A stretch of 34,907 bases of DNA from Prevotella sp. (GTDB taxonomy: Bacteria > Bacteroidota > Bacteroidia > Bacteroidales > Bacteroidaceae), in the NCBI GenBank assembly GCA_017615355.1, contig JAGAAJ010000082.1, positions 1 to 34,907 of the forward strand, in the 5' to 3' direction. Below the pieces are notes generated by a model. It worked only from the letters and a program-made list of their open reading frames with translations. It had not been told where the DNA came from and ran no database searches. The first letter of the stretch is position 1. Each line of letters opens with the position of its first letter. Position numbers and translations under genes: made by a program. Shown here piece after piece: positions 1 to 23,344 of this stretch.

Positions 1-78
1 ATCTGTTATCACAAAGTGGTCAAGCACTTCCTTGGGAAGTACAAGACGGGCTAACATTATCAAACCTTTGTCTTCCAT
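1..78 (-). CDS. Partial transposase N-terminal region (ISAon1-like), cut by window edge
   Basis: Only the first 26 codons are present on the minus strand; the frame stays open to base 1. The peptide reads MEDKGLIMLARLVLPKEVLD followed by HFVITD. The pattern L-x-L-P-K-E-x-x-D-x-F resembles the N-terminal region of ISAon1-type transposases that are frequent in Bacteroidota genomes; I recall this family resemblance and have not searched it. A TACCTTTG element lies at 83-90 on the minus strand, only 4 nt before the first ATG, so translation may instead begin at the second ATG (55-57). If the call is right, an insertion sequence borders the chaperone operon to the right. Confidence 0.45.
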   Translation of the reverse strand, partial: MEDKGLIMLARLVLPKEVLDHFVITD

Positions 79-213
79 GAGGCAAAGGTAATAAATTTAA
101 TTGAAACAAAGAATTACCCCTATGAAAAATCTACTGAGCCATTTATAGCTACCCAATAACTACAGAACCACCAAGTGCCGGGAGTCTGCTTGGGATAGAT
201 AGTATAACTACAA

Positions 214-3200
214 GTGGACACTATACCTAAAATCGTCTTGCTTAATCCCTTTAGGGTTCTTGGTGTTTATGCCAATTCCAAACGCCAGGAGATTCTTGCC
301 AACAAAAGTAAGGCTACGGCATTCTTGAATGTTAACAAACCTGTCGAGTTCCCTCTTGATTTGAAGGGAATTTTACCGTCTCTAAATCGTACCCTTAACT
401 TGATGAATGAGGCTGAAGCGCATCTGGCGATTGCAAAGGAGCGGATTAAGTATGCTCAGTTCTGGTTCTTGCAGAAGATGTCTCCACTAGACGACATTGC
501 TTTTAACCATCTATTAGCGGGCAATATGGCAGGGGCTATAGAGATTTGGTCAAAACAAGATTCTTTATCTTCACTGCAAAACAGACTTGTTTGCTATCTC
601 ATTGAAAACAAACTTGAAGTTGCAATTAAGACTGCAGAAAAGCTCTATGAAAAGTTCGGTAATGATTATATCAGCAAGGTAGACGCTAACAGTACCCTCC
701 AAATGACAGCTACCGACTTACTGCACCAATTTGTTGACTCATTAGGGGAAGAGATTGGAATGCAGAAGTTGTTGGATTTTGACCTAGGAGCAGAGACGAA
801 AGAATATATCAGCAGTCAGACCATTGGCCCACTTGTCAATAAGATTTCTTCTGAGGTTGACAAAACAAAGAGTGTTGACCACAAAAATCCAAAGGCTCGT
901 TTAGAGGCTGCGAGGGAATTGGTGGCAAACACAAAAGAGGCCTTTTCTCAGCTGAAGAACATCCTCCCTGCTACTGATTCACGGTATCAGATTATAGCTG
1001 ACAAATTAGGATTAGAGATTCTTCAATGTGGTATTGATTATTTTAATAACTCAAAAGACGATGGAAGGCATCAAACAGCAATGAAGATGCAAAAGTATGC
1101 CTTGTCCATTGTTGTGGGTACTCTGGCAAAGCAACGCTGCGAGGAGAACGTGAGAATCTTGCAGGATTTAATTGACAAACTCCCACCAGAAGAAATAAAG
1201 AAGGAACATGATAATCTTCAGGAAATCATCGCATTATTCATTCTGTTGCCAATTGATGTCGATGCTGTACTGAAATTCTTAAAAGACACATGTTCTGACT
1301 TGGTGTCAATAAAAGAGAAACTTGGGAAAAACAATCCTTTTTACATTCAACAAGCAACCTTGGTAGCCCAAATTGCTCTAAGTAAGTCCATTGATGCACT
1401 TAACGAAGCTCAAGAAGTAGAGTTGCCGAAGCTGAACGGAATTAATAGAGACAATGCAATAAAGACTATGAAACACGTCTTTGCTGTTTCTTGGGAAATC
1501 ATGTTGCAGATTGAACTGATAGATGCAGATTCTGATTTCAAAACTAATCGGTTGAAACCCAACAAGACTGCTCTAAAGAATATTCTGGACCAAGTAGATG
1601 CCTTCAAAGAAACTAGTACATTTGTACGGATGTTAGGTGGCTCATATTCGGTATTTGAAGGCTGTGCTAAGAGTGTAAAAGTGGACGTGTATCAATACTA
1701 TACCGAGAGTGAAATGTATAGCATTTGTACATCTGTCTCTTCCTGTCAATGTTATTTGAAGAAGTATCCACAAGGTAAACACGCAAATGATGTTCGCACA
1801 AAGCTGATATGTATGCAGGATGATGCCGATTTTCGGAAGGCCATAACGTTGTCTGATTACAAGAAATATCTTACAGCTTATCCTAAAGGCCGGCATGTAG
1901 ATGAAGTAAGAAAAAGAATTGGGGAGATAGAAGCACGACACAAAAAGATACTCTCAGAGATTGATCATTTGCAAACTTTTTCTGATGCTATCGCCTATTA
2001 CACGAGATGTAAAGAAGAAAAATATCGAATACTCCTTGATGATAAATGCTTTGAACTTTGTGAAAGAAAAGCCGACTTCAGAAAATATCTTGAATTATTT
2101 GGTTCAAAAGCCAAGCATAAAGTTGAAGCTGAAGACCATCTAAAATTTGACCGTGTAAAAGAGTACATGAATAAGCATAGGGGTTTGGCTGTCTTAGTTC
2201 TCATAATCCTTGTGGCCATCTTGTGCGTAGGAATCATTTGGGGGCTCTCAGGTTATTCAAAGATGTTGTTCGTTATCGGAGGTATTGCAGGCTTAATAGC
2301 ATTTGGCAGCTTACAGTCAAAAGACGATTCTGGATGTCTTGTTTTCATCGTGGCTGGTATTATTGCTGCTGTATGCATTGCAGGTGGTAATGGCATAAAT
2401 GGATGTGTAGAAAGGAACGAAGAAAAGGAACAGGCCGCGCAAAGAGAATTGGCTGAACAGCAAGCAGAAAGGTCGGATTACGAAAGCCTCAAGTTTAGTC
2501 CTACGACAGACAAGTGTTCTTCTTTTTTGAGGAATCATCCGAGATCAGCCCATTATGAAGAAGTTCTTGAAATATACTATTATTGTGCCCAAGGGAATAT
2601 AATGAGCCTGAATAAACTTGCAGAAGAATACGGAAGGACAAAATGGGGAACAAGAGCGTCAGAGCGTGTTGGTCAATTATGCGATTCTCTTTATCAAATA
2701 GCAGAAAGGACTCAAACCATAGCAGGATGGAGAGATTATCAAGCAGCAGTTCCCAATAATTTTTATGCGGACTCAAATGAAAAAATAAAAGAAATAGAAA
2801 ATGAAGCATGGAATACGGAAGCCAAAGCATGGCGACAAGCTTCTAATGAAAATACATTGGCTGCTTACAGAAAATACTTGAGCATGTATCCTAATGGGTC
2901 ACACAAAAACGCAGCTGATAAAAAAGTAATTGACTTAGAAGTGCAGGCTGTTGCCAGTAGCGGTGATTATGGCTATTTGCCACCTTCACAAAAATTGTCG
3001 TATGGAACAAGCCGCACAAGTAATGTATTTATTAAAAACAGCTCAAGTTCAACAATTACGATTCTTTATAGCGGAGCTAATAGTAGGAGGATTATACTTA
3101 GCCCACACCAATCACAAACTGTCAGCCTTCCTTCAGGTTCTTATAGAGTAGTGGCTACTGCTCCAGGGGTCAGGTCTTTCTATGGTACTGAAAACCTAAC

Positions 3201-3249
3201 AGGAGGTGACTATAGTTCTGAATACTATATCACAACAACAAGATACTAA
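214..3249 (+). CDS. J-domain-like multi-pass membrane protein with repeated helical motifs
   Basis: The 1011-residue protein starts at GTG; no in-frame ATG precedes the conserved-looking N-terminus. Residues about 8-90 look like a J-domain scaffold: N-P-F-R-V-L-G-V opens helix I and K-E-R-I-K-Y-A-Q closes the unit, but no HPD tripeptide is present. Residues about 100-640 are mostly helical. Three hydrophobic segments follow at about 657-680, 684-701 and 708-727. A degenerate Y-x-x-Y-L-x-x-Y-P-x-G-x-H motif recurs at about 514, 549, 770 and 885, suggesting TPR-like units on both sides of the membrane segments. Residues about 920-1011 are Ser/Thr-rich and probably a beta-sandwich. It is the first gene of a tight operon with GrpE-like and Hsp70-like genes, so a co-chaperone or scaffold role is inferred. 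No promoter with the usual motif is evident upstream. Confidence 0.7.
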   Translation: MDTIPKIVLLNPFRVLGVYANSKRQEILANKSKATAFLNVNKPVEFPLDLKGILPSLNRTLNLMNEAEAHLAIAKERIKYAQFWFLQKMSPLDDIAFNHLLAGNMAGAIEIWSKQDSLSSLQNRLVCYLIENKLEVAIKTAEKLYEKFGNDYISKVDANSTLQMTATDLLHQFVDSLGEEIGMQKLLDFDLGAETKEYISSQTIGPLVNKISSEVDKTKSVDHKNPKARLEAARELVANTKEAFSQLKNILPATDSRYQIIADKLGLEILQCGIDYFNNSKDDGRHQTAMKMQKYALSIVVGTLAKQRCEENVRILQDLIDKLPPEEIKKEHDNLQEIIALFILLPIDVDAVLKFLKDTCSDLVSIKEKLGKNNPFYIQQATLVAQIALSKSIDALNEAQEVELPKLNGINRDNAIKTMKHVFAVSWEIMLQIELIDADSDFKTNRLKPNKTALKNILDQVDAFKETSTFVRMLGGSYSVFEGCAKSVKVDVYQYYTESEMYSICTSVSSCQCYLKKYPQGKHANDVRTKLICMQDDADFRKAITLSDYKKYLTAYPKGRHVDEVRKRIGEIEARHKKILSEIDHLQTFSDAIAYYTRCKEEKYRILLDDKCFELCERKADFRKYLELFGSKAKHKVEAEDHLKFDRVKEYMNKHRGLAVLVLIILVAILCVGIIWGLSGYSKMLFVIGGIAGLIAFGSLQSKDDSGCLVFIVAGIIAAVCIAGGNGINGCVERNEEKEQAAQRELAEQQAERSDYESLKFSPTTDKCSSFLRNHPRSAHYEEVLEIYYYCAQGNIMSLNKLAEEYGRTKWGTRASERVGQLCDSLYQIAERTQTIAGWRDYQAAVPNNFYADSNEKIKEIENEAWNTEAKAWRQASNENTLAAYRKYLSMYPNGSHKNAADKKVIDLEVQAVASSGDYGYLPPSQKLSYGTSRTSNVFIKNSSSSTITILYSGANSRRIILSPHQSQTVSLPSGSYRVVATAPGVRSFYGTENLTGGDYSSEYYITTTRY

Positions 3250-3268
3250 CTACAAAATACATAATCCT

Positions 3269-4138
3269 ATGAAAAGAATTCTATTATTGCTATCCGTCTT
3301 TATAACCGTATCATCATTTGGTTTCTCAACAGACTCTTTAAAGATTGTCGCTCTTCAAAGAGAAGTGAGATATTTGAAGTCTACCATCTCCAGGCTTCAA
3401 CAGGAAGATGGGCGGTTGACAAGTTTATATCAACAGCAAGCAAAAGAATTGGACAGCGTGCGGACTTTTCAACAGGCGCAAGCTGATAATATAAATACTT
3501 TGGCGGATAAAGTTGGGACAGAAATTTCTGATGCTAACCAGAAGATTGACAACAATGTCAGTACGATATCTGGCAGTATCAATAGCCGCACATGGTATGG
3601 GGTGATCGGTATTCTGATAGCCTTAGTCCTATTGGCTCGCACATATTTTATATTAAGGAGAAAGATTAGCATCGGAGTCACGACGATTGACAAGATTCGT
3701 TCAGCCCAGGAAGGGTTGGAAGCGGCTCAAAAGGCGTTGCAAGCAGAGTCGGTAAAACTGGATAACAAATTAATGGAAATGCTGACAGATAAAATGGGAA
3801 CGATGCAAAAGGTTGATCATTCGTTTGCATTAAAGGTTGGTGATGAGATTGCGAGAATTGAGACAAATCTTTCAAAAATGGATAAGAACGTCAGAGGTTA
3901 TAACCAGTTAAAAGGCGCATTGCAACGCATTAAGGATAATTTCAATGCACATGGTTATGAGATTGTTGAGCTATTGGGACTTGACTATAATGACGGAATG
4001 CCTTTTGAGGCACAATTTGTCCCTGATGACACATTACCTGAAGGAAAACGTATTATATCAGGCATCACCAGGCTTCAGATCAATTATAATGGAGAGATGA
4101 TACAATCAGCGAAAATTGTTGTAAGGCAAAACATATAA
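3269..4138 (+). CDS. Membrane-anchored coiled-coil protein with GrpE-like C-terminal domain
   Basis: I place the start at the ATG at 3269, which gives a 289-residue protein beginning with a signal-like MKRILLLLSVFITVSS. Upstream in-frame codons overlap the preceding gene and look non-coding. Residues about 25-105 are heptad-like (Q/L/E rich), a TM helix follows at about 109-129, and a second long coiled coil runs to about 230. Residues about 240-287 match the GrpE beta-wing pattern: G-x-P-F near its start, then F-V-P-D-D-x-x-P-E-G, then N-G-E-M-I-x-x-A-K-I-V-V. Family knowledge says GrpE dimerises through long helices and uses this wing to release ADP from DnaK. The gene lies 12 nt before an Hsp70-like gene, so it is probably its dedicated, membrane-bound exchange factor. 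GrpE is normally soluble and lacks TM segments. Confidence 0.75.
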   Translation: MKRILLLLSVFITVSSFGFSTDSLKIVALQREVRYLKSTISRLQQEDGRLTSLYQQQAKELDSVRTFQQAQADNINTLADKVGTEISDANQKIDNNVSTISGSINSRTWYGVIGILIALVLLARTYFILRRKISIGVTTIDKIRSAQEGLEAAQKALQAESVKLDNKLMEMLTDKMGTMQKVDHSFALKVGDEIARIETNLSKMDKNVRGYNQLKGALQRIKDNFNAHGYEIVELLGLDYNDGMPFEAQFVPDDTLPEGKRIISGITRLQINYNGEMIQSAKIVVRQNI

Positions 4139-4150
4139 ACATAAACGATT

Positions 4151-6667
4151 ATGGCAAGACATAAAATTGATTATGGCATTGATTTGGGAACAACCAACTC
4201 TGCCATCGCGAGAATGGAGAATGGCGAGCCTGTTATAAAGAAAACACGTCAGCCACAGAATGACACTCTACCTTCTTGTGTTTATTTTTCACAAGATAGG
4301 CATGGACAGCAAACTATAAGAGTTGGACTTCGTGCCAAAAATAGCCTTGCTTCCGATTATATTGAGGCCTTGAAGAAAGGTTCTCAATCCGAAACTTATG
4401 GTTATATAGAGTTCAAAAGAGAAATGGCTCGTGACACCATCTTCAGAAACTCCCACATGAAAAAAGATGGATATACCCCTATTGAACTTTCATCAGAGGT
4501 CTTAAAGGAGTTAAAATCAATCATCAATGATGAAGATATAAATTCTGTCGTGGTTACTGTTCCCGCCAAATTTACTGTAAACCAAAATGATGCAACGAAA
4601 AAGGCCGCTGAGATTGCAGGATTTCACCAGTGTGAATTGCTTCAAGAGCCAATCGCCGCATGTTACGCATACGGCGTGTCCAGTTCGCAAAAGAATGGAT
4701 TTTGGTTAGTGTTTGATTTTGGCGGAGGAACATTTGATGCAGCACTTGTAAGGGTAGAAGACGGAATAATAAGTATAGTTGATACTGAAGGCAACAACTG
4801 GCTTGGAGGAAAGAATCTTGACGAAGCTGTTATTAATAATATCCTTATTCCAAAACTTAAAGAGACTTATGCTTTAGACTCAATTTTCGAGGAAGAATGG
4901 AAAGCCAAATCTCTGCGGGAAGCCCTTAAAGCTGTTGCGGAAGAATTGAGAATCAATCTTTCATTTGATGAACATGCTGACTTCTCAGCATACGACCGCG
5001 ATATGGATTTTGGAGAAGACGACAGCGGGGAGACTATAGAACCTGATTTTAGCGTAACACGTCAAGAGTTGTCAGATGTTATAACTCCAATATATCAAGA
5101 GGCCGTAGATATTTGCAAGAAGTTGTTGAGCAGAAACAATCTGGAAGGAAAAGACTTGGCTTCTCTTATCCTTGTTGGTGGTCCGACACTATCTCCAATA
5201 GTTAGAGAAATGTTGAGGAAGCAAATAACTGAGAAGGTTGAAACTAATGTAGACCCGATGACGGTAGTTGCACGTGGAGCAGCCTTATACGCCTCAACTA
5301 TAGATATTAGTGAGGGAACAGGCCCAGGACCGTCTATTGGTGAGCAACTTGTGAAATTGAATGTCGGCTATCAAGCTGCAACTGTAGAGGATAGTCAGTG
5401 GGTTAGTGTCTCTTTGGATAGTAGCAATAATATTGAGGAAGTTCAAATTGAGTTTGAGCGTTCAGACAAGGCCTTTATATCAGAAAGGATTGATGTAAAC
5501 AAACAAGGAAATGTTGTCGAACTACATTTTCAGAAAGGAAAGCCAAATGCATTCACCATCAACTGTTATGGTAAACAAGGAAAGATGGAATGCTTCCCGT
5601 CAGAGATTACCATCATTCATGGCATCAATGAACCTCGTGCTACGCTTCCTTATGACATCGCAATTGGTGTCTGGAATCATGAAAAGGAGAAAGCCGTGAT
5701 TGAGCCAATCAGAGGATTAGAGCGAAATAAGCCATTGCCTGCAACAGGAATTAATAATGAGCGCCACACTTTGAAAGACTTACGTCCAGGAAATCCTAAT
5801 GATGTGCTTGTTATCCCTATTTATCAGGCAGATGAAGGAGGAAGAGGCAAGTCAGTCTCGTTTTATGATCAGGTGTGTGAGGTGGCTATTAGCGGAGAAG
5901 AAGTGGAGCAATTTATTCCAACAGGTAGCGACGTCCACATTACATTGAAAGCAGACAGGTCACAAATGATGTCTATGGAAGTTTATTTCCCTGCATTTGA
6001 TTTTGCTATTGCAAAAGCCGTTGATACCAGTGGTACAGTTGAATATGGAAAGAAACAATTTGAAAGAGACTTGAATGATGCTTTGGAACAGGCAAGATCT
6101 CTTGAATTAGAGGGAGTTGACGTAAAAAAGATACGGGAAGACTTATTAAAGTTGAAGGAGGAGTCGCATAATAGTGATGACTGGATGAAGTTGCGTGACA
6201 GATTGCGTCTGATCAGACGCGAAATGGAAGACTTGGATGCTTCAACTGAATGGGAAAGACTAGAAAAGGATTTACGTGAGTCTTATGACATGTTAGAGAG
6301 AACAAATAAAGACTTGGGCAATGACCGATCTTCTGAGATTGTCAAGCAATTGCATTCACAGGTAGATAGTGTTATTCGTTCTAAGAACAATGCTACGGGT
6401 CGCGCTCTGCTTGACCAAATTAATGCTTTACAGTATCAGTTAGCTCGAGTACATTATTATATACATTGGATTATCGACTGGAATAATGATTTTGCTTCTC
6501 AACCCTGGAAAGACACCAGAAGAGCAAGGGATCTTGTGAATCAAGGAATGTCTATCATTGGGAATCAGCCAACAGCAGAGAAACTGCATCCAATAGTAGG
6601 TGAACTAATCGCCTTGTTGCCAGAGGGAAAAGGTCCCAAAGACCCAGAAGGCCCAGGTCTTGACTAA
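4151..6667 (+). CDS. Hsp70/DnaK-like chaperone, divergent, 838 aa
   Basis: The ATPase domain (about 1-385) is intact by motif: G-I-D-L-G-T-T-N-S-A near residue 9, F-D-F-G-G-G-T-F-D at 188-196, and L-I-L-V-G-G-P at 339-345. Residues about 395-510 are an extra beta-rich stretch not typical of DnaK. A recognisable substrate-binding beta-domain follows (about 510-620; L-P-A-T-G then V-L-V-I-P-I-Y-Q), then a long helical region (about 625-825) and a Gly/Pro/Asp-rich tail ending GPGLD. DnaK is usually near 640 residues, so this is a larger paralogue and not the housekeeping copy. It sits between a GrpE-like gene (12 nt upstream) and a kinase-AAA gene (10 nt downstream). Client and cellular role cannot be read from sequence. 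Confidence 0.93.
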   Translation: MARHKIDYGIDLGTTNSAIARMENGEPVIKKTRQPQNDTLPSCVYFSQDRHGQQTIRVGLRAKNSLASDYIEALKKGSQSETYGYIEFKREMARDTIFRNSHMKKDGYTPIELSSEVLKELKSIINDEDINSVVVTVPAKFTVNQNDATKKAAEIAGFHQCELLQEPIAACYAYGVSSSQKNGFWLVFDFGGGTFDAALVRVEDGIISIVDTEGNNWLGGKNLDEAVINNILIPKLKETYALDSIFEEEWKAKSLREALKAVAEELRINLSFDEHADFSAYDRDMDFGEDDSGETIEPDFSVTRQELSDVITPIYQEAVDICKKLLSRNNLEGKDLASLILVGGPTLSPIVREMLRKQITEKVETNVDPMTVVARGAALYASTIDISEGTGPGPSIGEQLVKLNVGYQAATVEDSQWVSVSLDSSNNIEEVQIEFERSDKAFISERIDVNKQGNVVELHFQKGKPNAFTINCYGKQGKMECFPSEITIIHGINEPRATLPYDIAIGVWNHEKEKAVIEPIRGLERNKPLPATGINNERHTLKDLRPGNPNDVLVIPIYQADEGGRGKSVSFYDQVCEVAISGEEVEQFIPTGSDVHITLKADRSQMMSMEVYFPAFDFAIAKAVDTSGTVEYGKKQFERDLNDALEQARSLELEGVDVKKIREDLLKLKEESHNSDDWMKLRDRLRLIRREMEDLDASTEWERLEKDLRESYDMLERTNKDLGNDRSSEIVKQLHSQVDSVIRSKNNATGRALLDQINALQYQLARVHYYIHWIIDWNNDFASQPWKDTRRARDLVNQGMSIIGNQPTAEKLHPIVGELIALLPEGKGPKDPEGPGLD

Positions 6668-6677
6668 ATAGTTAGGT

Positions 6678-8432
6678 ATGTTATTTCAAAAAGGACAAGC
6701 AATAGACAATCGCTACACGGTGGTGTTTCCGCATAAGGAGGGTTCTTATGCGGAAACCTATCGTGTGAGGGATGCAAGTGGAAAACTGCGGTTCCTGAAA
6801 CTGATATACTACTCAAAGTTGCAGTATTCGCAGTTTGATAAGGATGGCAGTATCATTGAGATGGAAGTCGCTAAGATGCTGAACCATCCCAATGTATGTA
6901 AGTATGTGGATAGTGGGAAGTTGATAGCCAACGGGCAGCAACTGGCTTATATTGTAACTGAGTTTGTGAGTGGTGAGACACTTGATAAGCGGATAGTCCG
7001 TGAGGATTTAAGCGTCTATGAAATCAAACTGGTGGTTAAGTCTTTACTTTCTGCCCTTCAATATCTGCATACACAGAGTACACCGATTATCCACAACGAG
7101 GTGACTATACAGAATCTGATGCTTGATTTGTCAGGTACATTGGAAAACTTAAAGCTGATAGACTTTGGCTATGCACGTTTTCTGAACCAAGAGCCAGCGA
7201 AGCCCAACTTGAAGCAACTCAATCCGTTCTATATGGCACCAGAGCGTCTGAATGGTGTGAGTTGTGTACAGTCAGATTTGTTTTCTGTGGGTGCGATACT
7301 CTACCAGTTGATATTTGATGAACTTCCTTGGTTCTTTGATGCCTCCAGAATGAGTGAGCAGCAGATAGTTGATAGATTGTCGGTAGAAAGGAATCATCCA
7401 CTGCGTATGCCCAACATAGACATGTTTGAGTTGGACGAACAACTGTTGAACATAATCAATAAGGCTACACAGAACGATACACAAGATCGTTTTCAGACGG
7501 CACAAGAAATGATGGATGCAATTGAAGGGAAGGTTAAGGTGGAGATAGCGAAGAGAATAAATGACACTGTAAAGAGCAAAGAACCACAGAAAAGAGTCAA
7601 GCGGGGTAATGGCTTCGCAGATGTCGCTGGTATGACTGAGCTCAAAGGGCAACTGCAATCCGATGTGATAGACCTGCTGCATAATCCTGAGCAAGCAAAA
7701 GAATTGGGGCTGAGCATTCCTAATGGACTGTTGTTCTACGGGCCTCCTGGATGTGGCAAGACCTTCTTTGCAGAGAAGTTTGCTGAAGAAACAGGGTTCA
7801 ATTATCAGTATGTCAGAGGCTCAGATGTTGCATCACCTTATATTGACGGTGGCAAGGGTAAGATAGCTAGTATATTCAATGAGGCCAGACAAAATGCACC
7901 AACCATTTTGTTCTTGGATGAGGTGGACTCTCTAATAAGAGACCGCAGCGCTCATAATAATGCTACTACGGCAGGGGCTGTGAATGAATTCTTGACCCAA
8001 TTAAATAATTGTGGTGAGGATGGTGTCCTTGTGATTGCTGCAACCAACAAACCAACAGACATTGACGAAGCGGCACTACGCGCAGGTAGATTGGAATTGA
8101 AGTACTACATACCTCAGCCTGATAAGGAAACTAGAAAGCGAATGTTCCAGATAGGCATTGGTAAGCGTAATTTTGACTTCGGTATTGATTATGACATACT
8201 GGCAGAGCGAACGGAGAATTATGTTTCTGCTGACATTAGCCTCATTATTGATACTGCCGCCCGTCTTGCTTTCAGGAGAAAGATTGGTAAGTTAACAATG
8301 GCACTACTTGAAGAGGCTATCAGTCAGACCAAACCGAGTCTGACATTAGAACAAATCAAACGTCATGAAGAAATTCGTGACAAGTTTATGGGGGTGAAAA
8401 AGAATAACGAACGACGTAAAATAGGTTTTTAA
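6678..8432 (+). CDS. Protein-kinase-like domain fused to Cdc48/FtsH-type AAA+ ATPase
   Basis: Residues about 8-275 form an Hsp70-operon kinase fold: a modified Gly-rich loop (E-G-S-Y-A-E-T-Y), ATP Lys K41, D-F-G at 162-164 and A-P-E at 187-189. The catalytic HRD is H139-N140-E141 and the following K is Thr143, so it may be a pseudokinase or a weak kinase. After a linker of about 35 residues, an AAA+ module (about 310-560) carries Walker A G-P-P-G-C-G-K-T (355-362), Walker B L-F-L-D-E (411-415), sensor-1 A-A-T-N, and R-A-G-R at 468-471 as the arginine-finger region. The fusion suggests the kinase fold controls or targets an unfoldase. No TM is seen. It is 10 nt after the Hsp70 gene and 2 nt before the next start. 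Confidence 0.9.
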   Translation: MLFQKGQAIDNRYTVVFPHKEGSYAETYRVRDASGKLRFLKLIYYSKLQYSQFDKDGSIIEMEVAKMLNHPNVCKYVDSGKLIANGQQLAYIVTEFVSGETLDKRIVREDLSVYEIKLVVKSLLSALQYLHTQSTPIIHNEVTIQNLMLDLSGTLENLKLIDFGYARFLNQEPAKPNLKQLNPFYMAPERLNGVSCVQSDLFSVGAILYQLIFDELPWFFDASRMSEQQIVDRLSVERNHPLRMPNIDMFELDEQLLNIINKATQNDTQDRFQTAQEMMDAIEGKVKVEIAKRINDTVKSKEPQKRVKRGNGFADVAGMTELKGQLQSDVIDLLHNPEQAKELGLSIPNGLLFYGPPGCGKTFFAEKFAEETGFNYQYVRGSDVASPYIDGGKGKIASIFNEARQNAPTILFLDEVDSLIRDRSAHNNATTAGAVNEFLTQLNNCGEDGVLVIAATNKPTDIDEAALRAGRLELKYYIPQPDKETRKRMFQIGIGKRNFDFGIDYDILAERTENYVSADISLIIDTAARLAFRRKIGKLTMALLEEAISQTKPSLTLEQIKRHEEIRDKFMGVKKNNERRKIGF

Positions 8433-8434
8433 GT

Positions 8435-9439
8435 GTGGAGATTGATGAGAGACACGAAATTATTCGTAAGGAACAATTAGAAAAGGTAAAGACGGGAAAT
8501 AGTGTTTTTGGCAAGGTCCCGTCTGAAATCGGTATAATTACATTCTGCGATTCTAGCACTTGGGATGAGAAAGCACCGACCATTGCAGAAGCAAATAAAA
8601 TAAGAATATGGTGCTTTGTTATTGGGGCTGGGATTATCGCATTCTTTTGGTCTGTTTTTCCAAATGCTATGGTATTAAATATCATAGTAACAATTATCGT
8701 ATCAATTTACTCAATTCTACTAATACTTTTGGCAGGTGAATTCTCAGGAACAGATTATTTTATTGGTGATCAAGGCTTTGCTGTTATGAAATTTAAAAGA
8801 GAGAGACACAATTTCATAAAAAAGGACGTTGTGAAATTTTCGGAAGTATCGGATGTCGTGGATAGTGAAATAGATTATTATGACAGCAAGGGCAATTATG
8901 AACGTTCAATGTATTCTTACTACTTTCATAACGTTTATAGAAAAGAACTTTATGATATCAGTGCTCATTATTCTTTTATTGGTTTACACAAGAAACTCCC
9001 TTGGCAAGAAATTGATTTTAGATTTTGGAAGAAACTAGAAGATGCATGGTATGATTATTATATAAAGGAACTTGCATATATTAACAATGAAATGGGGGGT
9101 ACTTTTGTCTTTGTGATGTTTGAATCTGCAAACAAAGAAGATTTAAGCAGATGTAATGCTACGCCATTTGCAGTTATCGAAGGGGAAAAACTCATTTTGG
9201 GGGACAGGACATTTACACCAGAAAGCATAAGAAAAATTTATATAGATAAAGGTGTGAGTAATAAAACTCATGAGAGGAAAGGAATGCTTGTCATCGAGGG
9301 TATAGATTACACCCCCAAGAAGATGTTTAAGAAAGAAAGCGGTACTATTGAAAGGATTCCGCTCGCAAACGTCGGTAATTGTCGCATTTTTATTAAGGTG
9401 ATTGAGAATTATATAAAGCAAAATAATATTAATAGTTAA
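8435..9439 (+). CDS. Two-TM membrane protein, possibly PH-like cytosolic domains
   Basis: The 334-residue protein starts at GTG, 2 nt after the kinase-AAA stop; no ATG gives a better fit in this frame near the start. A hydrophilic N-terminus (about 1-45) is followed by two hydrophobic segments (about 50-68 and 71-94) forming a hairpin in the inner membrane. The remainder is soluble, with short alternating strands (for example D-Y-F-I-G-D-Q-G-F-A-V-M-K-F), as in bacterial PH-like domains of membrane proteins. That fold assignment is a guess from pattern only. Its position inside the operon indicates it works with the chaperone and ATPase genes, perhaps as a membrane recruiter. Confidence 0.75.
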   Translation: MEIDERHEIIRKEQLEKVKTGNSVFGKVPSEIGIITFCDSSTWDEKAPTIAEANKIRIWCFVIGAGIIAFFWSVFPNAMVLNIIVTIIVSIYSILLILLAGEFSGTDYFIGDQGFAVMKFKRERHNFIKKDVVKFSEVSDVVDSEIDYYDSKGNYERSMYSYYFHNVYRKELYDISAHYSFIGLHKKLPWQEIDFRFWKKLEDAWYDYYIKELAYINNEMGGTFVFVMFESANKEDLSRCNATPFAVIEGEKLILGDRTFTPESIRKIYIDKGVSNKTHERKGMLVIEGIDYTPKKMFKKESGTIERIPLANVGNCRIFIKVIENYIKQNNINS

Positions 9440-9443
9440 GATT

Positions 9444-9950
9444 ATGGAACAAAGCGAATTGTTGTTACGAACGGCTTTTGCCTGTATGTCATGTGACGGT
9501 GATATAGCCTCAGAAGAAGTCGAACTGATCAAACAGATGTCAAAAGAGAAACAACTCTTTGGCGAAGTTGACATTGACAAAGAATTGGATGAATTGGTGA
9601 GTGAAATCAATCTGAAGGGTAAAGGCTTCTTAAAACAATATCTGCAAAGCCTGGCTGAAGAGTCTTTGACTGAAGAGCAGGAACTGAAGGTGGCTGATGT
9701 AGCTGTGCAAACTATTCGTGCTGACAATAGAATCGAATACAGCGAGATTAAGTTCTTCAAGGTGCTTCGTTCAAATCTGAAGATCGTTTCAGACGAGACG
9801 CTTCTTGAAAAGATAGATGGCATTGATGAAAACTATCTCGCTCAGGACATTCAGGCAGATTATCTACAGATGTATGATGACTACTTCAGCACGATAGAGT
9901 TGCCTAAGTTCGAAATATTGAAACAAGACTTTAAATCTGTAGGCAGTTAA
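9444..9950 (+). CDS. TerB-like (TerB/DjlA N-terminal fold) protein
   Basis: The 168-residue, all-helical, acidic protein has two metal-site-like acidic motifs spaced as in TerB: C-D-G-D-I-A-S-E-E near residues 18-26, and A-D-N-R-I-E-Y-S-E near residues 93-101, each followed by a helix. TerB domains are known from tellurite-resistance (Ter) stress systems and from the N-terminus of the co-chaperone DjlA. Finding one next to J-like, GrpE-like and Hsp70-like genes fits that theme. It starts 4 nt after the preceding stop and is the last gene of the operon. Biochemical function of TerB domains is not settled; metal binding here is inferred. Confidence 0.8.
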   Translation: MEQSELLLRTAFACMSCDGDIASEEVELIKQMSKEKQLFGEVDIDKELDELVSEINLKGKGFLKQYLQSLAEESLTEEQELKVADVAVQTIRADNRIEYSEIKFFKVLRSNLKIVSDETLLEKIDGIDENYLAQDIQADYLQMYDDYFSTIELPKFEILKQDFKSVGS

Positions 9951-10375
9951 TGCCAATGATATTATTGAAGCAGAAAGTGCAAGAGCTGGGTGGAGGGGAT
10001 GGATCTGCTTCAAACTCCTAGTGCCACAGGGAGAAAGGGTGTGGTGGAATTGTATAACTCTCCTCATCATTTTTATAATGAAAAAGAGAATTTGCAGTTA
10101 GGTTGGGCATAAAATTGCCCAACTTATCAAAAGTAAGCGAGGGCATGACCTCATGAAGTTCATGGAACTTGGTTGTTCATTGGTTGATTTGCTAACAATT
10201 ATTGCTAAATGCTTTATTAAAGGCGAGACTCTATAGTTAACAGATTTGTCAAGTGGACTCAAAGATGCAGCTACAATTTGTTGTTGTTGTTTCAGAAGGG
10301 GAAATGTTTAACCCTCCAAATCGGGATGGCACCCAATGCGGGTGCTATCCTTTCCATAGCGAATAACTGTAGACA
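9951..10375. other. Gene-poor spacer with two hairpins
   Basis: I see no convincing gene in these 425 bases. Two strong inverted repeats occur. One is at 10102-10109/10116-10123 (GTTGGGCA / TGCCCAAC, 6-nt loop), extendable to 11 pairs through a G-U at its base. The other is at 10324-10334/10340-10350, 11 pairs with one G-U and a 5-nt loop. The first follows the chaperone operon and may end or stabilise its transcript, although no T-run follows. The second lies 25 nt before the next gene and is followed by TTTCC. Confidence 0.6.
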
Positions 10376-10675
10376 ATGAAACAGGTATACCTCATTCTTG
10401 CAGCTCTCCTGCTGCTGTGCCTCGCCCCTATGCCTTACGGCTATTACCAGTTGGTAAGGTTCGTGGCAATGGTGGCGTTTGGTGTGATGGCCTACAATTA
10501 TTGCAACGAGAAGAAGGAAGTGTTGATGGTTGTCTTTGGAGCCTTGGCTTTGCTGTTCCAGCCATTTTTCAAGGTGGCTTTAGGCCGCACAATGTGGAAC
10601 ATCGTGGATGTAATTGTTGCCATCGGACTGATAGCTTTGTTCTTTTACGAAACGAAAAGAGAAAAAGACAGATAA
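10376..10675 (+). CDS. Small membrane protein, DUF6804-like
   Basis: The 99-residue protein is almost entirely hydrophobic: segments at about 4-20, 26-42, 49-66 and 73-90, with short loops and a charged K-R-E-K-D-R end. The motif P-x-P-Y-G-Y-Y-Q-L-x-R-F at about 18-29 recalls DUF6804 small membrane proteins of Bacteroidota; this is recall, not a search. Function is unknown. It stands alone, preceded by a hairpin at 10324-10350 and followed by a non-coding stretch. Confidence 0.7.
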   Translation: MKQVYLILAALLLLCLAPMPYGYYQLVRFVAMVAFGVMAYNYCNEKKEVLMVVFGALALLFQPFFKVALGRTMWNIVDVIVAIGLIALFFYETKREKDR

Positions 10676-10816: not shown

Positions 10817-10920
10817 GTGGAAAACCTGACCATAAGGAGAAATAAAAGGGCGCTTTTTTATTTCAAACTTTTAAACGGGCATTTCGTACAGATGCCCGTT
10901 TTTTGTTGGCATATTCATGC
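10817..10920 (+). repeat. Direct repeat copy 1 (terminator-bearing, about 105 bp)
   Basis: This segment runs from GTGGAAAACCTGACC to CATATTCATGC and matches 13081-13188 along its full length with scattered substitutions and small indels. Its 5' part corresponds to the last codons of the gene at 12224-13111 but is frameshifted here, so it looks like a fossil of a similar gene end. Confidence 0.8.
10873..10904 (+). terminator. Rho-independent terminator within repeat copy 1
   Basis: The arms AAACGGGCAT (10873-10882) and ATGCCCGTTT (10892-10901) are perfect complements with a 9-nt loop, followed by a T-run. It would end transcription entering from the left. Confidence 0.8.
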
Positions 10921-10941
10921 TATTATGTGAAATGAAAATCG

Positions 10942-12231: not shown

Positions 12232-13111
12232 CTTTGACAACATAAGCGAGAATGAGATCCGTATCATCGGTACGAATCCAGAGGAGCAGAAAACACCGCC
12301 AAAGAGTAATAAATGGCGGGTGCTGATGATGTCGCTGGGCGTGGCTCTGGTATTACTGGCCGTGACATTGCTTTGGCCAAAGGCTCATCAGGAGGCTGCG
12401 GAGCCTGCAAAGCCGGTAGCCACCGTGCAGCAGCAGAAGGTGGATAGCGTGGTGGTGGAGAAGAAGGCCTACGTGGAGATCACTGATACTATTATTAATA
12501 ATGTGAGCCTTCATAGGTATATTCCTGTGAATGCTGTTCCCAGACTTGAGGTGGGTCTTCTGAAAGCTATTCCTGAGGAGTATGTCCTGGGCGCTATGGC
12601 TGCCGACTTCGGACAGGATCACGGGAAATACCAGGTGATAGGCGCCTTCGTGCATCAGGGCAAGATGATGAGCCACTCTAAATCGAAATATGGCTTCTGC
12701 GCCCTGCTGAAAGATACGGTGGTGATAGGCGACGATCTCTCTACTTCATATTTCGAACAGGCTATTGAGGAGAATGGTGATTTCTTCAGACAGCATGCGC
12801 TGGTGCATGACGGTGAGGTGGTGACGAAATTCATCACCCAGGGCGAGGCCCTCAGAAGGGCCCTGTGCGTGCTGAAGGACGGCCGCATCTGTATCATCGA
12901 CACGGACATGAGCGTGACCTTCGACAGCTTCGCTGAGGCATTATGTGGATATGGCGTCAGGGATGCCATCGCCCTGATGGGCAGCGGAGCAGCCGTGAGA
13001 TGGGCTGTGGACGAAGCCGGAAGACGATACATCGCTGGGGCTGACGAATATGATTTTCCTGAAGTGGTGAACTACATCGTGTGGGAGAAACCTGACCAAA
13101 AGAAAGAATAA
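12224..13111 (+). CDS. Membrane-anchored phosphodiester glycosidase-like (NAGPA/DUF2233) protein
   Basis: The 295-residue protein has an acidic cytosolic N-terminus (about 1-32), one TM helix (about 33-50) and a large external domain. The external part follows the NAGPA order: Y-G-F-C-A-L-L-K-D-T-V-V-I-G (about 146-159), F-F-R-Q-H-A-L-V-H-D-G-E-V-V, then R-R-A-L-C-V-L-K-D-G-R-I-C-I-I-D-T (about 210-226) and G-V-R-D-A-I-A-L-M-G-S-G (about 243-254). In active family members the last motif is usually D-G-G-G-S; here it is M-G-S-G-A, so the catalytic Asp appears lost. It overlaps the LytTR gene by 8 nt. It may be a sensor or binding protein for the regulator, or an enzyme with altered chemistry. 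Confidence 0.65.
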   Translation: MDSFDNISENEIRIIGTNPEEQKTPPKSNKWRVLMMSLGVALVLLAVTLLWPKAHQEAAEPAKPVATVQQQKVDSVVVEKKAYVEITDTIINNVSLHRYIPVNAVPRLEVGLLKAIPEEYVLGAMAADFGQDHGKYQVIGAFVHQGKMMSHSKSKYGFCALLKDTVVIGDDLSTSYFEQAIEENGDFFRQHALVHDGEVVTKFITQGEALRRALCVLKDGRICIIDTDMSVTFDSFAEALCGYGVRDAIALMGSGAAVRWAVDEAGRRYIAGADEYDFPEVVNYIVWEKPDQKKE

Positions 13112-13188
13112 AAAAGGCGCATTTTCATTTCAAACTTTAAAACGGGCATTTCGTACAGATGCCCGTTTTTTAGTTGGCATATTCATGC
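13081..13188 (+). repeat. Direct repeat copy 2 (gene end, terminator, -33 box)
   Basis: This is the counterpart of 10817-10920. It contains the last codons of the NAGPA-like gene, the AAACGGGCAT hairpin, and the TTG that serves as -33 box of the next promoter. The hairpin core is identical in both copies. Confidence 0.8.
13140..13171 (+). terminator. Rho-independent terminator after the NAGPA-like gene
   Basis: The arms 13140-13149 and 13159-13168 pair perfectly over 10 bp with a 9-nt loop and run into a T-tract. It lies 28 nt after the stop codon and ends the LytTR operon. Confidence 0.9.
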
Positions 13189-13204
13189 TTTCTTGCTATC
13201 TTTG
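13174..13204 (+). promoter_or_regulatory. Promoter for the gene at 13236
   Basis: TTG (13174-13176), 20-nt spacer, TATCTTTG (13197-13204), 31 nt before the start codon. It begins directly after the terminator T-run. Confidence 0.85.
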
Positions 13205-14954: not shown

Positions 14955-15373
14955 GCTTTCTGAAGTTCATTTATGAAAACAAAAACAATAAAAAACCCTT
15001 CTGTGGTATTGACGCTCATTCTGAGCATCTGTGACGAGTGTTATGGCTCTGTCATTAAAAGCACGCTTTTATGCCAGCGTCATACCACTCGTCCCGACCA
15101 CTGTCGTGGTTCAATCCCACAGAAGGAAAAACAGGAAAAACCTTTTTCCTCAGTGCATAGCACGCTTAAGTATATGCGCAGCTGGTTTTCTTGTTTTTTC
15201 CTTGATGAGAAAGAGTCCCTGAAAGGGATAACGGTATTTGGTGAAAGGCTGTCTGTGTGCTTGCACACAAGCAGCCTTGCAACAAATGACGTTAATACTC
15301 TGACAAGAGTATCTTTCTCAGCAAGGGGTTTTGAAGGTTTTTGTTAATAACCGAAACTTTTAAAAAAAAGAGG
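14955..15373 (+). ncRNA. Structured RNA or long leader upstream of ftsZ, family not recognised
   Basis: Within the first part, a perfect 10-bp stem (14997-15006/15117-15126, CCTTCTGTGG with CCACAGAAGG) encloses three arms. P2 is 15014-15018/15022-15026. P3 is long, 15033-15045/15081-15093 with one mismatch and an inner hairpin near 15054-15073. P4 is 15097-15101/15106-15110. This is a cloverleaf-like four-way junction. An alternative pairing GTGG/CCAC around TTCAATC competes with P4. Further hairpins follow at 15125-15131/15143-15149, 15247-15260/15263-15276 and 15295-15301/15306-15312. A reading frame at 14973-15347 exists but looks non-coding. I could not match it to RNase P RNA, tmRNA, SRP RNA or a known riboswitch. 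Confidence 0.55.
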
Positions 15374-16672
15374 ATGGACGAGATACTGGACTTTGGGCCC
15401 GTGGAGGACCAGATGCAGAACATCATCAAGGTGATCGGCGTGGGCGGCGGCGGATGCAACGCCGTGAGCCGTATGTATGACGAGGGTATTCAGGGCGTTT
15501 CTTTCGCCGTGCTGAACACCGACAGCGCCTCGCTGGCACACTCGCCGGTGCCCGTGAAGCTGCAGCTGGGCTCTGGCCTGGGAGCCGGCGCCAAGCCGGA
15601 AATCGGCAGGGCTGAGGCGGAGAGCAGCATCGACAGCATTGAGCGACTACTGGACGACCAGACGAAGATGGTGTTTGTGACGGCGACGATGGGCGGCGGC
15701 ACGGGAACGGGCGCTGCTCCCGTGGTGGCCCGCGTGGCAAAGGAGCGCGGACTGCTGACCATCGGCGTGGTGACCATCCCCTTTTTCTTCGAGCACCGCC
15801 GCAAGATCATCAAGGCGCTGAAGGGCGTGGACGAGCTGCGGGAGAACGTGGACGCGATGCTGATCGTGAACAACGAGCGGCTGTGCGACGTCTACAGCGA
15901 CACGTCGATGTCGCTGAAGGATGCCCTGGCAGAGGCGGACAACGTGCTGAAGAACGCCGTGAAGGGCATCTCGGAACTCATCACCATCAGCTCGGCGGGA
16001 AACATCAACCTTGACTTCCGCGACGTGGAGACGACGATGCGCAACGGCGGCGGCGCCATCATGGCCATCGGCAGGGCCGGCGGCAACCAGCGCGTGGAAC
16101 GCGCCATCCTCGACGCCCTCGACTCGCCCCTGCTGCACGGCAACGACATCAACCGAGCCAAGCGTATCCTCTTTAATATCTATGCCAGCGAGCAGCATCC
16201 CGTGCTCATACCTGAGATGCAGGAGATATCGGAGTTCTTCGACCAGCTGGACCCCGACATCGAGGTGATATGGGGCACGTCGACGGACAACTCGCTGGGC
16301 GAGGATGCGAAGGTGATCATCCTGGCTGCCGACATGGGCGACGAACTGAAACCCGACAAGGTGGAGGATGACGAGCGGGAAGACCACTATGAGCGGCTCA
16401 TCGGCAGGCTCTACCAGCCTCTGGTGAGAACCGTGAAGAAGGAGGAACCCGATCCGCCCTTCGTGGTGGAGAAGGCTCCCGAGGTAGAACCCGCCGTTGA
16501 GGAACCCGCCGCAGAGGAGCCCGCCATCGCTGAGCCAACAGCAGAGGAACCTGCCGCAGAGGAGCCCGCCAGCGCCGCCGCCGTCAAGGACATAGAAGCC
16601 ACCACGACGCTGGGCCGATGGAAGAAATGGCTCATGGAGAAGGTGGATGTGCTGACAAAGGACGACAACTGA
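15374..16672 (+). CDS. ftsZ: Cell-division GTPase FtsZ (outside dcw cluster, possible paralogue)
   Basis: The start is the ATG at 15374 after AAAAGAGG. The 432-residue protein has the tubulin-type GTP-binding loop G-V-G-G-G-G-C-N-A-V (about 22-31), signature G-G-G-T-G-T-G-A-A-P (107-116) and T7 loop N212-L-D214-F-R-D217, so both nucleotide binding and hydrolysis in the polymer should be possible. The globular core ends near 330. The linker is acidic and Pro-rich with repeated E-E-P-A units (about 370-400), and the tail ends W-L-M-E-K-V-D-V-L-T-K-D-D-N; I do not recognise the usual C-terminal FtsA-binding peptide. FtsZ normally sits behind ftsQ and ftsA, but none are here. It may be the main or a second FtsZ; the window cannot decide. 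The next gene starts 4 nt downstream. Confidence 0.92.
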   Translation: MDEILDFGPVEDQMQNIIKVIGVGGGGCNAVSRMYDEGIQGVSFAVLNTDSASLAHSPVPVKLQLGSGLGAGAKPEIGRAEAESSIDSIERLLDDQTKMVFVTATMGGGTGTGAAPVVARVAKERGLLTIGVVTIPFFFEHRRKIIKALKGVDELRENVDAMLIVNNERLCDVYSDTSMSLKDALAEADNVLKNAVKGISELITISSAGNINLDFRDVETTMRNGGGAIMAIGRAGGNQRVERAILDALDSPLLHGNDINRAKRILFNIYASEQHPVLIPEMQEISEFFDQLDPDIEVIWGTSTDNSLGEDAKVIILAADMGDELKPDKVEDDEREDHYERLIGRLYQPLVRTVKKEEPDPPFVVEKAPEVEPAVEEPAAEEPAIAEPTAEEPAAEEPASAAAVKDIEATTTLGRWKKWLMEKVDVLTKDDN

Positions 16673-16676
16673 ACCG

Positions 16677-17249
16677 ATGCCTTACCTGAACCTCACACCT
16701 GAAGAGATGGCCGACGAGATGGGCCAGCTGGCCCGTCAGCTGCAGGCCGCAGGGCGCACCGACCTGGTGCTCCGTGCCCTCGGCGTGTCGATGATCGAGG
16801 ACCTGCGACTGGAGGCGGCCAAGGGCAGCCTGCAGCCGCTGCGCATCACCAGCGACTACCGATTCTTCGTAGGACAGCGGGAGGTGGAGCTGCAGCCTGT
16901 GCACAAGGCGGTGTACCTGCTCTTCCTGGCTCATCCCGAGGGCATCGAGTTCAAGCGGCTGTCGGAATACCGTGAGGAGCTGACGGCCTATTATATGAAG
17001 ACGGCCCGCAGCATGGACAAGGAAAGCATTGTGGAGGGCGTGAGCCGACTGGTGAATCCGCTCGACAATGCCATCAATGAGAAGTGTTCGCGTATCAAGA
17101 ATGCCTTCCTCTCGCTGATGGACGCCTATTCGGCCAGCTATTACATCATCAGCGGACACGCCCAGCGACACATCGTGGGGTCGAGCCGTGTATGGTACAA
17201 CAGACTGAAGGTGATCACCCTGCCCAGGCACCTGGTGCAGTTTACGTAA
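16677..17249 (+). CDS. Hypothetical protein co-transcribed with ftsZ, 190 aa
   Basis: The soluble protein has two halves. Residues about 1-65 are helical (L-x-P-E-E-M-A-D-E-M-G-Q-L-A-R-Q-L). Residues about 75-190 contain H-K-A-V-Y-L-L-F-L-A-H-P-E-G-I-E-F-K, N-A-I-N-E-K-C-S-R-I-K-N-A-F and a closing L-P-R-H-L-V-Q-F. I recall the second half as a recurring orphan domain in Prevotella and relatives, with a winged-helix-like look; no function is assigned. It begins 4 nt after ftsZ stop, so it is probably in the same transcript. Its last 8 nt overlap the 3' end of the opposing histidine-kinase gene. Confidence 0.75.
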   Translation: MPYLNLTPEEMADEMGQLARQLQAAGRTDLVLRALGVSMIEDLRLEAAKGSLQPLRITSDYRFFVGQREVELQPVHKAVYLLFLAHPEGIEFKRLSEYREELTAYYMKTARSMDKESIVEGVSRLVNPLDNAINEKCSRIKNAFLSLMDAYSASYYIISGHAQRHIVGSSRVWYNRLKVITLPRHLVQFT

Positions 17250-19170: not shown

Positions 19171-20627
19171 GCGTCGGTAGATTTAGGGATGGGACTGTCT
19201 TTGGAGACGTTGGTGACGGCTATCATGCGGTCGAGGAGCGTCGTGATGGCATCGGTCTGCTCAATCATCTTCTGCGTGAGCTGTTCCATCGAGGCCTGAT
19301 CTATCTGATCCTGGTCATGCAGGGTCTGCACCAATGCACCGATGTTGTTGGCGGGTTGCACCAGCTGGTCGGTGGCGCTGTTGAGGAAGGCCGTCTTGGC
19401 GCGGTCGGCTTTCTGGGCATGTTCGTAGGCTTCATGCAAGGCCTGGCCCTGCTGCTCAAGACTCTGGCGGTGGTGGACGATCTTCTCGAGGAAGTCAGAC
19501 ATCGACCGCTGCATGCCGTAGAAGGCATTCTGCAGGCGTCCCAGCTCGTCCTGCCGCTTGGTCTCGTCGATGGGATGGTCGAAATGACCTTCTGCCAGGC
19601 GCTGGGCTGATGCATCCAGCTGCTGCAGCGGGTGCAGCTGGCGCCGGATAAAAAAGATGAGGAAGGCCAACAGGATCACTATGCCGATGAAGGTGATGAC
19701 GATGGCCAGGCGCCGCAGCTGGAAATAGGATGCCAGCATCTCATGCTCAGGACACAGCACCTCGATGCTCCAGTCGGCTTTCTCGAAGGGACGGTAGAAG
19801 GCATAGCAGTCTTCACCGTTCACCTGGAGCTTCATCATGCCACTCTCGCCGTTGAGCTGGGCGGTGATCAGATTGCGCAGGTTCTCGTCGCTCTCATCCG
19901 TCATCATACGGAGGACGGCCCCCGGCTGCAGCATCGCACTGTCGGGATGGATGATGAACGAGCCGTGATGGCTCAGCAGGGCACAGGAGGTGTTGGGATA
20001 GGGCCGTGTCTGCTGGATGGTGCGCGAGAGCTTGTCGAGCGAGATATCGACGGCCAGCACGCCAATGGCCTCGCCATCCTGATGAATGGGAACGGAATAG
20101 GTGGTGATGGGCGAAGGACTGTAGACGCTCACCCATGAGGGGTCGATCCATTCGGAGTCGTTGTTCATGACAGGGTCGGCATACCACACCTGCTCGGTGA
20201 AGGGCACATCGCCAAAGGTGTCGAAACGGGTTATCTTGCCGGCTTCGCGGCGGTAGTAGGCCATGTAGTGGGTGCCCTTGTCGGGATAATAGTCAGGCTT
20301 GAAGGCGATGGCACACCCCTCGATGGCAGGATTGTCGAGCAGCATCTGACGGCCGAAGACGAGCATGGCGTCGGCATCGTCGAGATGGTGCTCCACGTTC
20401 CATAGCATATTGTGCGTGGCCGTCTCTACTTCATTCAAGGCATTATCGATGGTGAGGATGGCAGAGTTGAGCACCGACTGTACCTTGGCCACCGCCTCGT
20501 CGACGACGGTCTGTCGGACAAACCACAGCACGACCCATACAACGGCAACGAACATCACCGTTACTAACGTCATCACCCAGAGGCCGAGCCTTGCGGTGAG
20601 CGTGTTGGGCCGAATCAATCTACGCAC
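19167..20627 (-). CDS. dCache-HAMP receptor with degenerate HisKA and no ATPase domain
   Basis: The 486-residue protein starts at GTG. It has TM1 (about 15-38), a double-Cache-like external domain with F-K-P-D-Y-Y-P and W-Y-A-D-P segments, TM2 (about 305-325), HAMP (Q-L-H-P-L-Q-Q-L-D-A-S-A-Q-R-L-A-E-G) and a coiled coil. Where its neighbour has S-H-Q-L-R-T-P-L-N, this protein has S-A-T-D-Q-L-V-Q-P-A-N-N, lacking the phospho-acceptor His, and it stops soon after without an ATPase domain. It is therefore a receptor without kinase activity, likely pairing with the full kinase encoded immediately downstream. It is intact, not frameshifted. Confidence 0.88.
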   Translation of the reverse strand: MRRLIRPNTLTARLGLWVMTLVTVMFVAVVWVVLWFVRQTVVDEAVAKVQSVLNSAILTIDNALNEVETATHNMLWNVEHHLDDADAMLVFGRQMLLDNPAIEGCAIAFKPDYYPDKGTHYMAYYRREAGKITRFDTFGDVPFTEQVWYADPVMNNDSEWIDPSWVSVYSPSPITTYSVPIHQDGEAIGVLAVDISLDKLSRTIQQTRPYPNTSCALLSHHGSFIIHPDSAMLQPGAVLRMMTDESDENLRNLITAQLNGESGMMKLQVNGEDCYAFYRPFEKADWSIEVLCPEHEMLASYFQLRRLAIVITFIGIVILLAFLIFFIRRQLHPLQQLDASAQRLAEGHFDHPIDETKRQDELGRLQNAFYGMQRSMSDFLEKIVHHRQSLEQQGQALHEAYEHAQKADRAKTAFLNSATDQLVQPANNIGALVQTLHDQDQIDQASMEQLTQKMIEQTDAITTLLDRMIAVTNVSKDSPIPKSTDA

Positions 20628-21840: not shown

Positions 21841-21856
21841 GGGAAATGATAGTTTT

Positions 21857-23329: not shown

Positions 23330-23344
23330 TTTTGTGTAAAGGTT

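Follow-up and report, generated by a model that had tools for sequence, protein, structure and literature searches.

Does the beginning of a Prevotella contig encode a chaperone system of a kind that has not been described before, and what might such a system do? The DNA considered here, referred to as the window, is a stretch of 34,907 nucleotides from Prevotella sp. (assembly GCA_017615355.1, contig JAGAAJ010000082.1, positions 1 to 34,907). An earlier note, made from the sequence without database searches, had described at its left end a tight operon for a J-like protein, a GrpE-like protein, an Hsp70, a kinase-like/AAA+ fusion, a two-transmembrane protein and a TerB-like protein, and had taken it for a probably acquired module, with envelope stress or defence as a possible role. 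Five of these genes were identified in the present work as a core which recurs in a single order in other bacteria. It is proposed, with about an even chance of being correct, that the products of the operon form a single machine for protein remodelling which is tethered to the membrane, its genes being carried on mobile genomic islands.

Conservation of the Gene Set and Its Order

In the window, six co-directional open reading frames (ORFs) are present on the plus strand at positions 214-9950, with intergenic gaps of 13, 12, 10, 2 and 4 nt, as expected for the tight operon. Related loci were obtained by a scan of 84,980 species genomes, for which the C-terminal half of the Hsp70 was used as the sole marker. 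The scan relied on one ten-residue pattern, which retained 80 of 81 relatives; the resulting 79 loci represent a lower bound, and not all of them are independent. In the block around the Hsp70 gene, gene 2 (coiled coil) was identified at 68 of the 79 loci, the kinase-AAA gene at 64, gene 1 (J-like/TPR) at 63, the TerB gene at 54 and a gene for a DUF6804 protein at 20. These numbers are understated, since a block was ended at gaps of more than 1500 nt, as for L126, whose kinase-AAA gene is seen outside the block, and since some genes were also lost to contig ends. For the 55 loci with room, meaning at least 3.5 kb on either side of the Hsp70 gene (extra gene copies were tolerated and some loci are close relatives), the corresponding numbers were 54 for gene 2, 53 for gene 1, 50 for kinase-AAA, 44 for TerB and 16 for DUF6804.

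All five core genes are present at 42 of these 55 loci, and all 42 have the order gene 1-gene 2-Hsp70-kinase-AAA-TerB, with median gaps of 2, 12, 38 and 5 nt. The gap between the genes for Hsp70 and kinase-AAA exceeds 400 nt in 16 of the 42, which gives space for an additional gene; at L092, the extra gene at this site matches a CpXC zinc protein. A second, different Hsp70 is encoded between the first Hsp70 and the kinase-AAA gene at L108, L129, L138 and L139. The pairwise distances of the five proteins, calculated for 44 complete loci, were correlated with r=0.59-0.82, while the maximum for any pair in 500 shuffles was 0.23.

The co-occurrence of six families, as suggested in the earlier note, was thus found for five of them. 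Gene 5 (8435-9439, plus strand), coding for a two-transmembrane protein, was identified at 5 loci in all, the window included, and is not found next to the kinase-AAA gene at L031-L034. It was therefore rejected as a core part and is considered a sporadic accessory gene. The DUF6804 gene (gene 7; 10376-10675, plus strand; Pfam 7.6e-33), which codes for a three-transmembrane protein and lies outside the range of the note, recurs more often and is the recurrent last gene of the module.

At 5 of the 55 loci with room, the kinase-AAA gene is missing while Hsp70 and gene 2 are kept, in four cases together with gene 1; the chaperone part can therefore occur by itself. Likewise, L097, L099, L102 and L107 from Bacteroidales, as well as the Desulfobacteria loci, contain gene 1-gene 2-Hsp70 or fewer and no motor pair, some of the Desulfobacteria stretches ending soon after. 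On the basis of such loci, two sub-modules seem to be present, a chaperone triad and a motor pair. At L099, L102 and L107, which are without kinase-AAA or TerB, gene 1 is found in two to four tandem copies before gene 2 and Hsp70.

Distribution and Apparent Mobility of the Module

The module is rare, and its hosts include gut and marine bacteria. At the family level, a search with the kinase-AAA protein gave matches in 28 of 251 genomes at 30 loci, and Hsp70 was present at 7 of the 30. The Hsp70 C-terminal marker was identified in 7 of the 251 family genomes, none of the others being from the genus of the window, of which at least 16 genomes were searched. At the phylum level, 9 of 395 genomes contained the marker at E<=1e-8; in the stretches fetched from these nine, the window and five others encode Hsp70 together with kinase-AAA, and three encode a diverged Hsp70 and no kinase-AAA. 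Among the taxa with the Hsp70 are Bacteroidia, Flavobacteriia, Saprospiria, metagenome-assembled genomes of Melioribacteraceae and Endomicrobiaceae, Vibrio ezurae, Succinivibrionaceae and Desulfobacteria; Flavobacterium omnivorum is one of the environmental isolates with the operon. All five genes are present at L120 and L134, the loci from Melioribacteraceae and Endomicrobiaceae, and the Vibrio ezurae locus contains four of the five, TerB not being found there. Two loci labelled "Clostridia" (L067, L068) were not counted as a phylum, because their Hsp70s nest among those of Prevotella and the contigs are probably misbinned. In a quick tree of the Hsp70s, the sequences from Prevotellaceae, Bacteroidaceae and Muribaculaceae are mixed with each other, and those from Succinivibrionaceae are placed beside the window on long branches.

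Among 72,556 plasmid records, one carries the module. This is pHALHY02 of Haliscomenobacter hydrossis, in which the five core genes are flanked by SIR2/WD40 genes on one side and by a BREX cluster on the other; in the record they are labelled as CFI-box-CTERM protein, septum formation initiator, Hsp70 family protein, AAA family ATPase and TerB family protein. Past the BREX cluster, a macro-domain gene and a DUF4433 gene are present (NC_015512.1, 36468-38173). No relative was identified in viral contigs, where none of the 28 pattern matches was related, and phages gave no match; carriage by phages or viruses was accordingly rejected. The flanks of the module differ between loci.

In the window, the ten 1-kb bins of positions 1-10000 have a G+C content of 0.372-0.436, compared to 0.536-0.624 for the bins of 15001-34000, which agrees with the low value reported before. 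Window base 1 is the first base of the contig, and positions 1-141 at this edge form a repeat with 98-100% identity to three other sites in the genome; one of these copies of about 141 bases is also located at base 1 of its contig. These first bases are probably the end of an insertion sequence (IS), so that of the IS fragment claimed at the edge the repeat is observed and its IS nature is deduced. With conserved synteny, matched divergence, patchy occurrence and a plasmid copy beside BREX, the description as an acquired module appears apt.

The Hsp70 and the Kinase-AAA Protein

Gene 3 (4151-6667, plus strand) codes for the Hsp70 already named in the note (Pfam HSP70, 9.8e-59). The match covers residues 9-382 of the window protein and ends there, and the ATPase domain with its phosphate and adenosine motifs is present. 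In 79 proteins, some of which are incomplete ORFs, GIDLGT[TS] was identified in 70 and FDxGGGTxD in 67. The remaining, distinct C-terminal half of about 450 amino acids is a specific marker for the module; when its profile, built from 11 sequences, was compared to the PDB, no Hsp70 chain was among the 29 matches at E<=5.

Gene 4 (6678-8432, plus strand) encodes a clear fusion of a kinase domain (Pfam 4.4e-33) with an AAA domain (1.3e-33) and ends with RRKIGF. The best PDB relatives of the AAA domain are VCP-like ATPase, Cdc48 and p97. Conserved residues were counted in 67 kinase-AAA proteins; that of the window is among them, as are a few that are encoded apart from a complete module. For the AAA domain, the Walker A lysine and the Walker B glutamate are kept in all 67, the arginine fingers in 65 and 67, and the pore-loop aromatic residue in 66. 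For the kinase domain, the VAIK lysine is kept in 62, the HRD aspartate in 17 (replaced by glutamate in 39) and the DFG aspartate in 58; the window protein has HNE at the HRD site and retains the lysine and DFG. An active kinase for most members was rejected, as the catalytic aspartate is kept in only 17 of 67. The domain is likely to be a pseudokinase in most members and may be active in a minority, so that the fusion expected by the note holds and its kinase as an enzyme is not supported.

In 55 of the 67 proteins, [IVL]GF is located at most 6 residues from the C-terminus. Among 15 more distant AAA proteins from the family search, [IV]GF was present within the last 30 residues in all 15 and close to the end in 12. 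A small protein, designated c2, is encoded in one or two copies at 19 of the 23 family kinase-AAA/AAA loci without Hsp70; its best PDB match, DR_1245, was not significant (E=0.19). At L007-L012, L015 and L019-L030, an AAA of the same subfamily, mostly with [IV]GF near the C-terminus, adjoins one or two c2 proteins, and no Hsp70 triad is present.

The Putative Cofactors

Gene 1 (214-3249, plus strand) was analysed as an ORF by profile comparison and hydropathy. The encoded protein has a degenerate J-like domain at the N-terminus, followed by a TPR-like helical stretch and a cluster of transmembrane segments at about residues 657-725. The N-terminal domain (NPYRILGV..) gave a probability of 73-78% against J domains in hhalign, above 100 of 100 column shuffles. 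HPD was found in none of 70 N-termini, namely those among 81 proteins for which the NP[YFLW]R start could be located, and DnaJ was not among the 25 listed of 27 Pfam families for 52 members. A CFI-box pattern is present in 13 of 63 proteins. The J-like nature was hence supported by the profiles, without the HPD motif.

Gene 2 (3263-4138, plus strand; an alternative GTG start at 3206 overlaps gene 1) codes for a protein with an N-terminal signal or transmembrane segment, a coiled coil, a second transmembrane segment and a conserved C-terminal domain of 112 amino acids. A likeness of this domain to GrpE is visible by eye, and a slice picked by eye was used for the comparison. Against a cleaned GrpE set, the local hhalign probability did not exceed 2%, and 2-3 of 50 shuffles scored as high; in global alignment, none of 50 shuffles scored as high in two settings, at a probability of at most 3.5%. 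Against an uncleaned set, in which at least one ORF is in the wrong frame, scores as high were reached by 4 of 100 shuffles in local and by 1 of 100 in global alignment. Pfam GrpE was matched by 5 of 60 members, the best match (L136, 0.0016) lying within the coiled coil, and GrpE positions 73-164 were matched only by L132 (E=0.0089). A PDB search with the C-terminal profile gave no GrpE among 12 matches, and the probability against the GrpE of the same genome was 0.5%. GrpE homology as an established fact was rejected, the local score being insignificant even with the cleaned set; the protein is GrpE-like at most in a weak sense. The "full Hsp70 cycle" of the note is consequently not upheld, given a J-like domain lacking HPD and a GrpE homology that is not established.

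Gene 6 (9444-9950, plus strand) codes for a protein without predicted transmembrane segments. Pfam TerB (PF05099) was matched at E<=0.05 by 24 of 31 members, with 3.5e-7 as the best value, the window protein itself not being among them. The hhalign probability against TerB was 94-96%, for a reference set that was not cleaned of wrong-frame ORFs. By these profile matches, the assignment as TerB-like made in the note was confirmed at the level of the family. Transmembrane segments were predicted from hydropathy for proteins 1, 2 and 5, the three members to which the note had ascribed them, and for the DUF6804 protein.

A Proposed Machine and the Alternatives

From the gene content and order, the matched divergence, the intact motifs of Hsp70 and AAA, the degenerate motifs of kinase and J-like domain, the predicted transmembrane segments and the patchy distribution, we infer a complex, its topology and its site at the membrane. 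In this complex, gene 1 (J-like/TPR, with its transmembrane cluster) and gene 2 (coiled coil, transmembrane segment and C-terminal domain) would anchor and regulate the dedicated Hsp70. Hsp70 would bind a client close to the inner membrane or directly at it, before passing it to the Cdc48/p97-like AAA, which as a hexamer would thread it through its pore. The pseudokinase might provide the AAA with a domain for docking or regulation, replacing the N domain of Cdc48, and TerB and the three-transmembrane DUF6804 protein might tune or localise the complex.

Several points weigh against this proposal. The Hsp70 cycle may be non-canonical, because the J-like domain is without HPD and GrpE-type exchange is unproven. 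The absence of TerB from 11 and of kinase-AAA from 5 of the 55 loci with room implies that neither is strictly required. The correlation of distances fits co-function and the inheritance of one DNA block alike. In addition, the classes in the Hsp70 tree are clustered beyond any of 200 shuffles, and descent may account for much of the distribution; transfer between bacteria is therefore suggested by the tree and not proven.

With respect to its role, the assignment leans slightly to conflict or defence over envelope proteostasis, because of the rarity and the plasmid context of the module, the lack of a recognised effector weighing the other way. One possibility, which we hold tentatively and at somewhat less than even chance, is a threshold switch, in which Hsp70 and the pseudokinase-AAA would hold or release a conformational state upon sensing a phage or mobile element at the membrane, with variable accessory genes or DUF6804 as the effector. 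This would fit the patchy distribution in family and phylum and the plasmid copy with SIR2 upstream and BREX adjoining. It would also fit published conflict systems built around a GTPase, in which HSP70, GrpE and DnaJ/TPR proteins occur as partners, and the mostly inactive kinases of other systems, both described by Kaur et al. 2020 (PMC7159879). Moreover, the neighbours of the module match more PADLOC models than controls: at 1e-10, 146 models were matched by 118 neighbours and 50 by 82 neighbours, versus 34 by 118 controls. However, this comparison counts models and not proteins, one protein can match many models, and the controls, taken from 20 stretches of 13 genomes and not genome-matched, also match restriction and helicase models. 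The neighbours comprise 200 scanned out of 224 selected proteins, including a few genes inside modules, and are otherwise varied. The defence-island check raised by the note gave BREX beside the plasmid copy and, with these reservations, more matched models in the flanks than in the controls. The PADLOC matches of the core are generic, namely kinase/AAA models for gene 4 (for example mad6, PD-T4-6, IetA and MkoA, among the 25 listed of 40) and weak ones for genes 1, 2 and 6 (best, gene 2 to LmuB, 6e-4), with none for Hsp70 and gene 5. No nuclease, NADase or other toxic effector was matched by the window proteins in Pfam or is among the families listed for the relatives, and the single plasmid record and the lack of viral relatives also speak against a switch of this kind. 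In a more specific and rather doubtful version, a mobile, membrane-anchored immune or conflict system would use Hsp70 with degenerate co-chaperones to sense or capture a foreign protein at the envelope, which the pseudokinase-steered Cdc48-like AAA would then destroy or disassemble, as a bacterial counterpart of Hsp70-p97 extraction.

A role in envelope-stress proteostasis, which we rate slightly below the switch, would make the module an auxiliary chaperone line; during stress, membrane proteins and exported proteins would be extracted or refolded by it, and it would have no anti-phage role. The conserved enzymes are of the chaperone and unfoldase type, proteins 1, 2 and 7 have transmembrane segments, and no effector was seen; a general stress role would nevertheless be expected to be widespread within genera, which the seven family genomes, with no other from the genus of the window, are not. 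It is improbable that the AAA feeds clients to a protease by docking its C-terminal [IV]GF tail to a peptidase such as ClpP. The tail is conserved and may resemble the IGF loop of ClpX, but in ClpX this motif is an internal loop, the core contains no peptidase, and AAA proteins with c2 partners have the tail as well. That unrelated genes came together on an island by chance, to which the differing flanks might point, has a negligible probability and was ruled out by the one order in all 42 complete loci and by the matched divergence.

Comparison to Known Systems

In the DnaK-ClpB bi-chaperone, an Hsp70 is partnered with a threading AAA motor. The module differs in having a classical AAA related to Cdc48/p97, membrane-linked cofactors and a patchy occurrence. 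If the proposed machine is correct, bacteria would have a second type of Hsp70-AAA partnership in addition to that of DnaK and ClpB. Its motor would be p97-like, its regulator a pseudokinase and its cofactors membrane-linked, and it would apparently be passed among bacteria. It would make testable the role of mobile chaperone sets, of TerB-like proteins beside chaperones, and of an Hsp70 working with a J-like partner lacking HPD.

The nearest published theme found is that of the GAP1-N2 systems, in which Hsp70, J/TPR and GrpE partners also share one neighbourhood. As described in PMC7159879, their core consists of a GTPase and an FNIII-repeat protein, and the HSP70 theme is found mainly in actinobacteria and firmicutes. 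The module has a Cdc48-like AAA with pseudokinase and TerB, is found mainly in Bacteroidota, and its core proteins in the window gave no GTPase or FNIII match in Pfam. Shango operons, which come from defence hotspots, likewise combine a TerB-like protein with an ATPase; they have a helicase, and the accessible text (PMC10250203) mentions no Hsp70 or kinase-AAA fusion. No DEAD/DEAH helicase was identified among the window core proteins in Pfam and NCBIfam. CoCoNuT type III-A operons contain Hsp70-like domains and TerY-P add-ons (vWA, phosphatase, kinase) together with their own McrB GTPase and nuclease components, as given in PMC11090510; in the same two databases, the window core proteins gave no match to such components. 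The kinase-AAA or AAA-only genes with c2 found here share the AAA subfamily and the [IV]GF tail, and one or two c2 proteins replace the Hsp70 triad and TerB.

A description of this gene set as a system was not found among the titles listed in a literature search that reached mainly freely available journals. No system-specific PADLOC match was obtained for the core proteins, and among the matches listed no NCBIfam model reached its cut-off for those of the window. Within that scope, the novelty suggested in the earlier note was retained.

Further Features of the Window

Downstream of the module, an intergenic repeat of 100 nt is present at 10822-10921 and 13088-13189, with 90% identity between the copies; by eye, it contains a terminator-like inverted repeat. 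In a comparison within the genus, a downstream window protein was matched in 5 of 29 other genomes with 47-55% identity. Two neighbouring sensor kinase-like genes on the minus strand (17242-20627) have a matching layout, the second of which, judged by eye, seems to be without the ATPase end.

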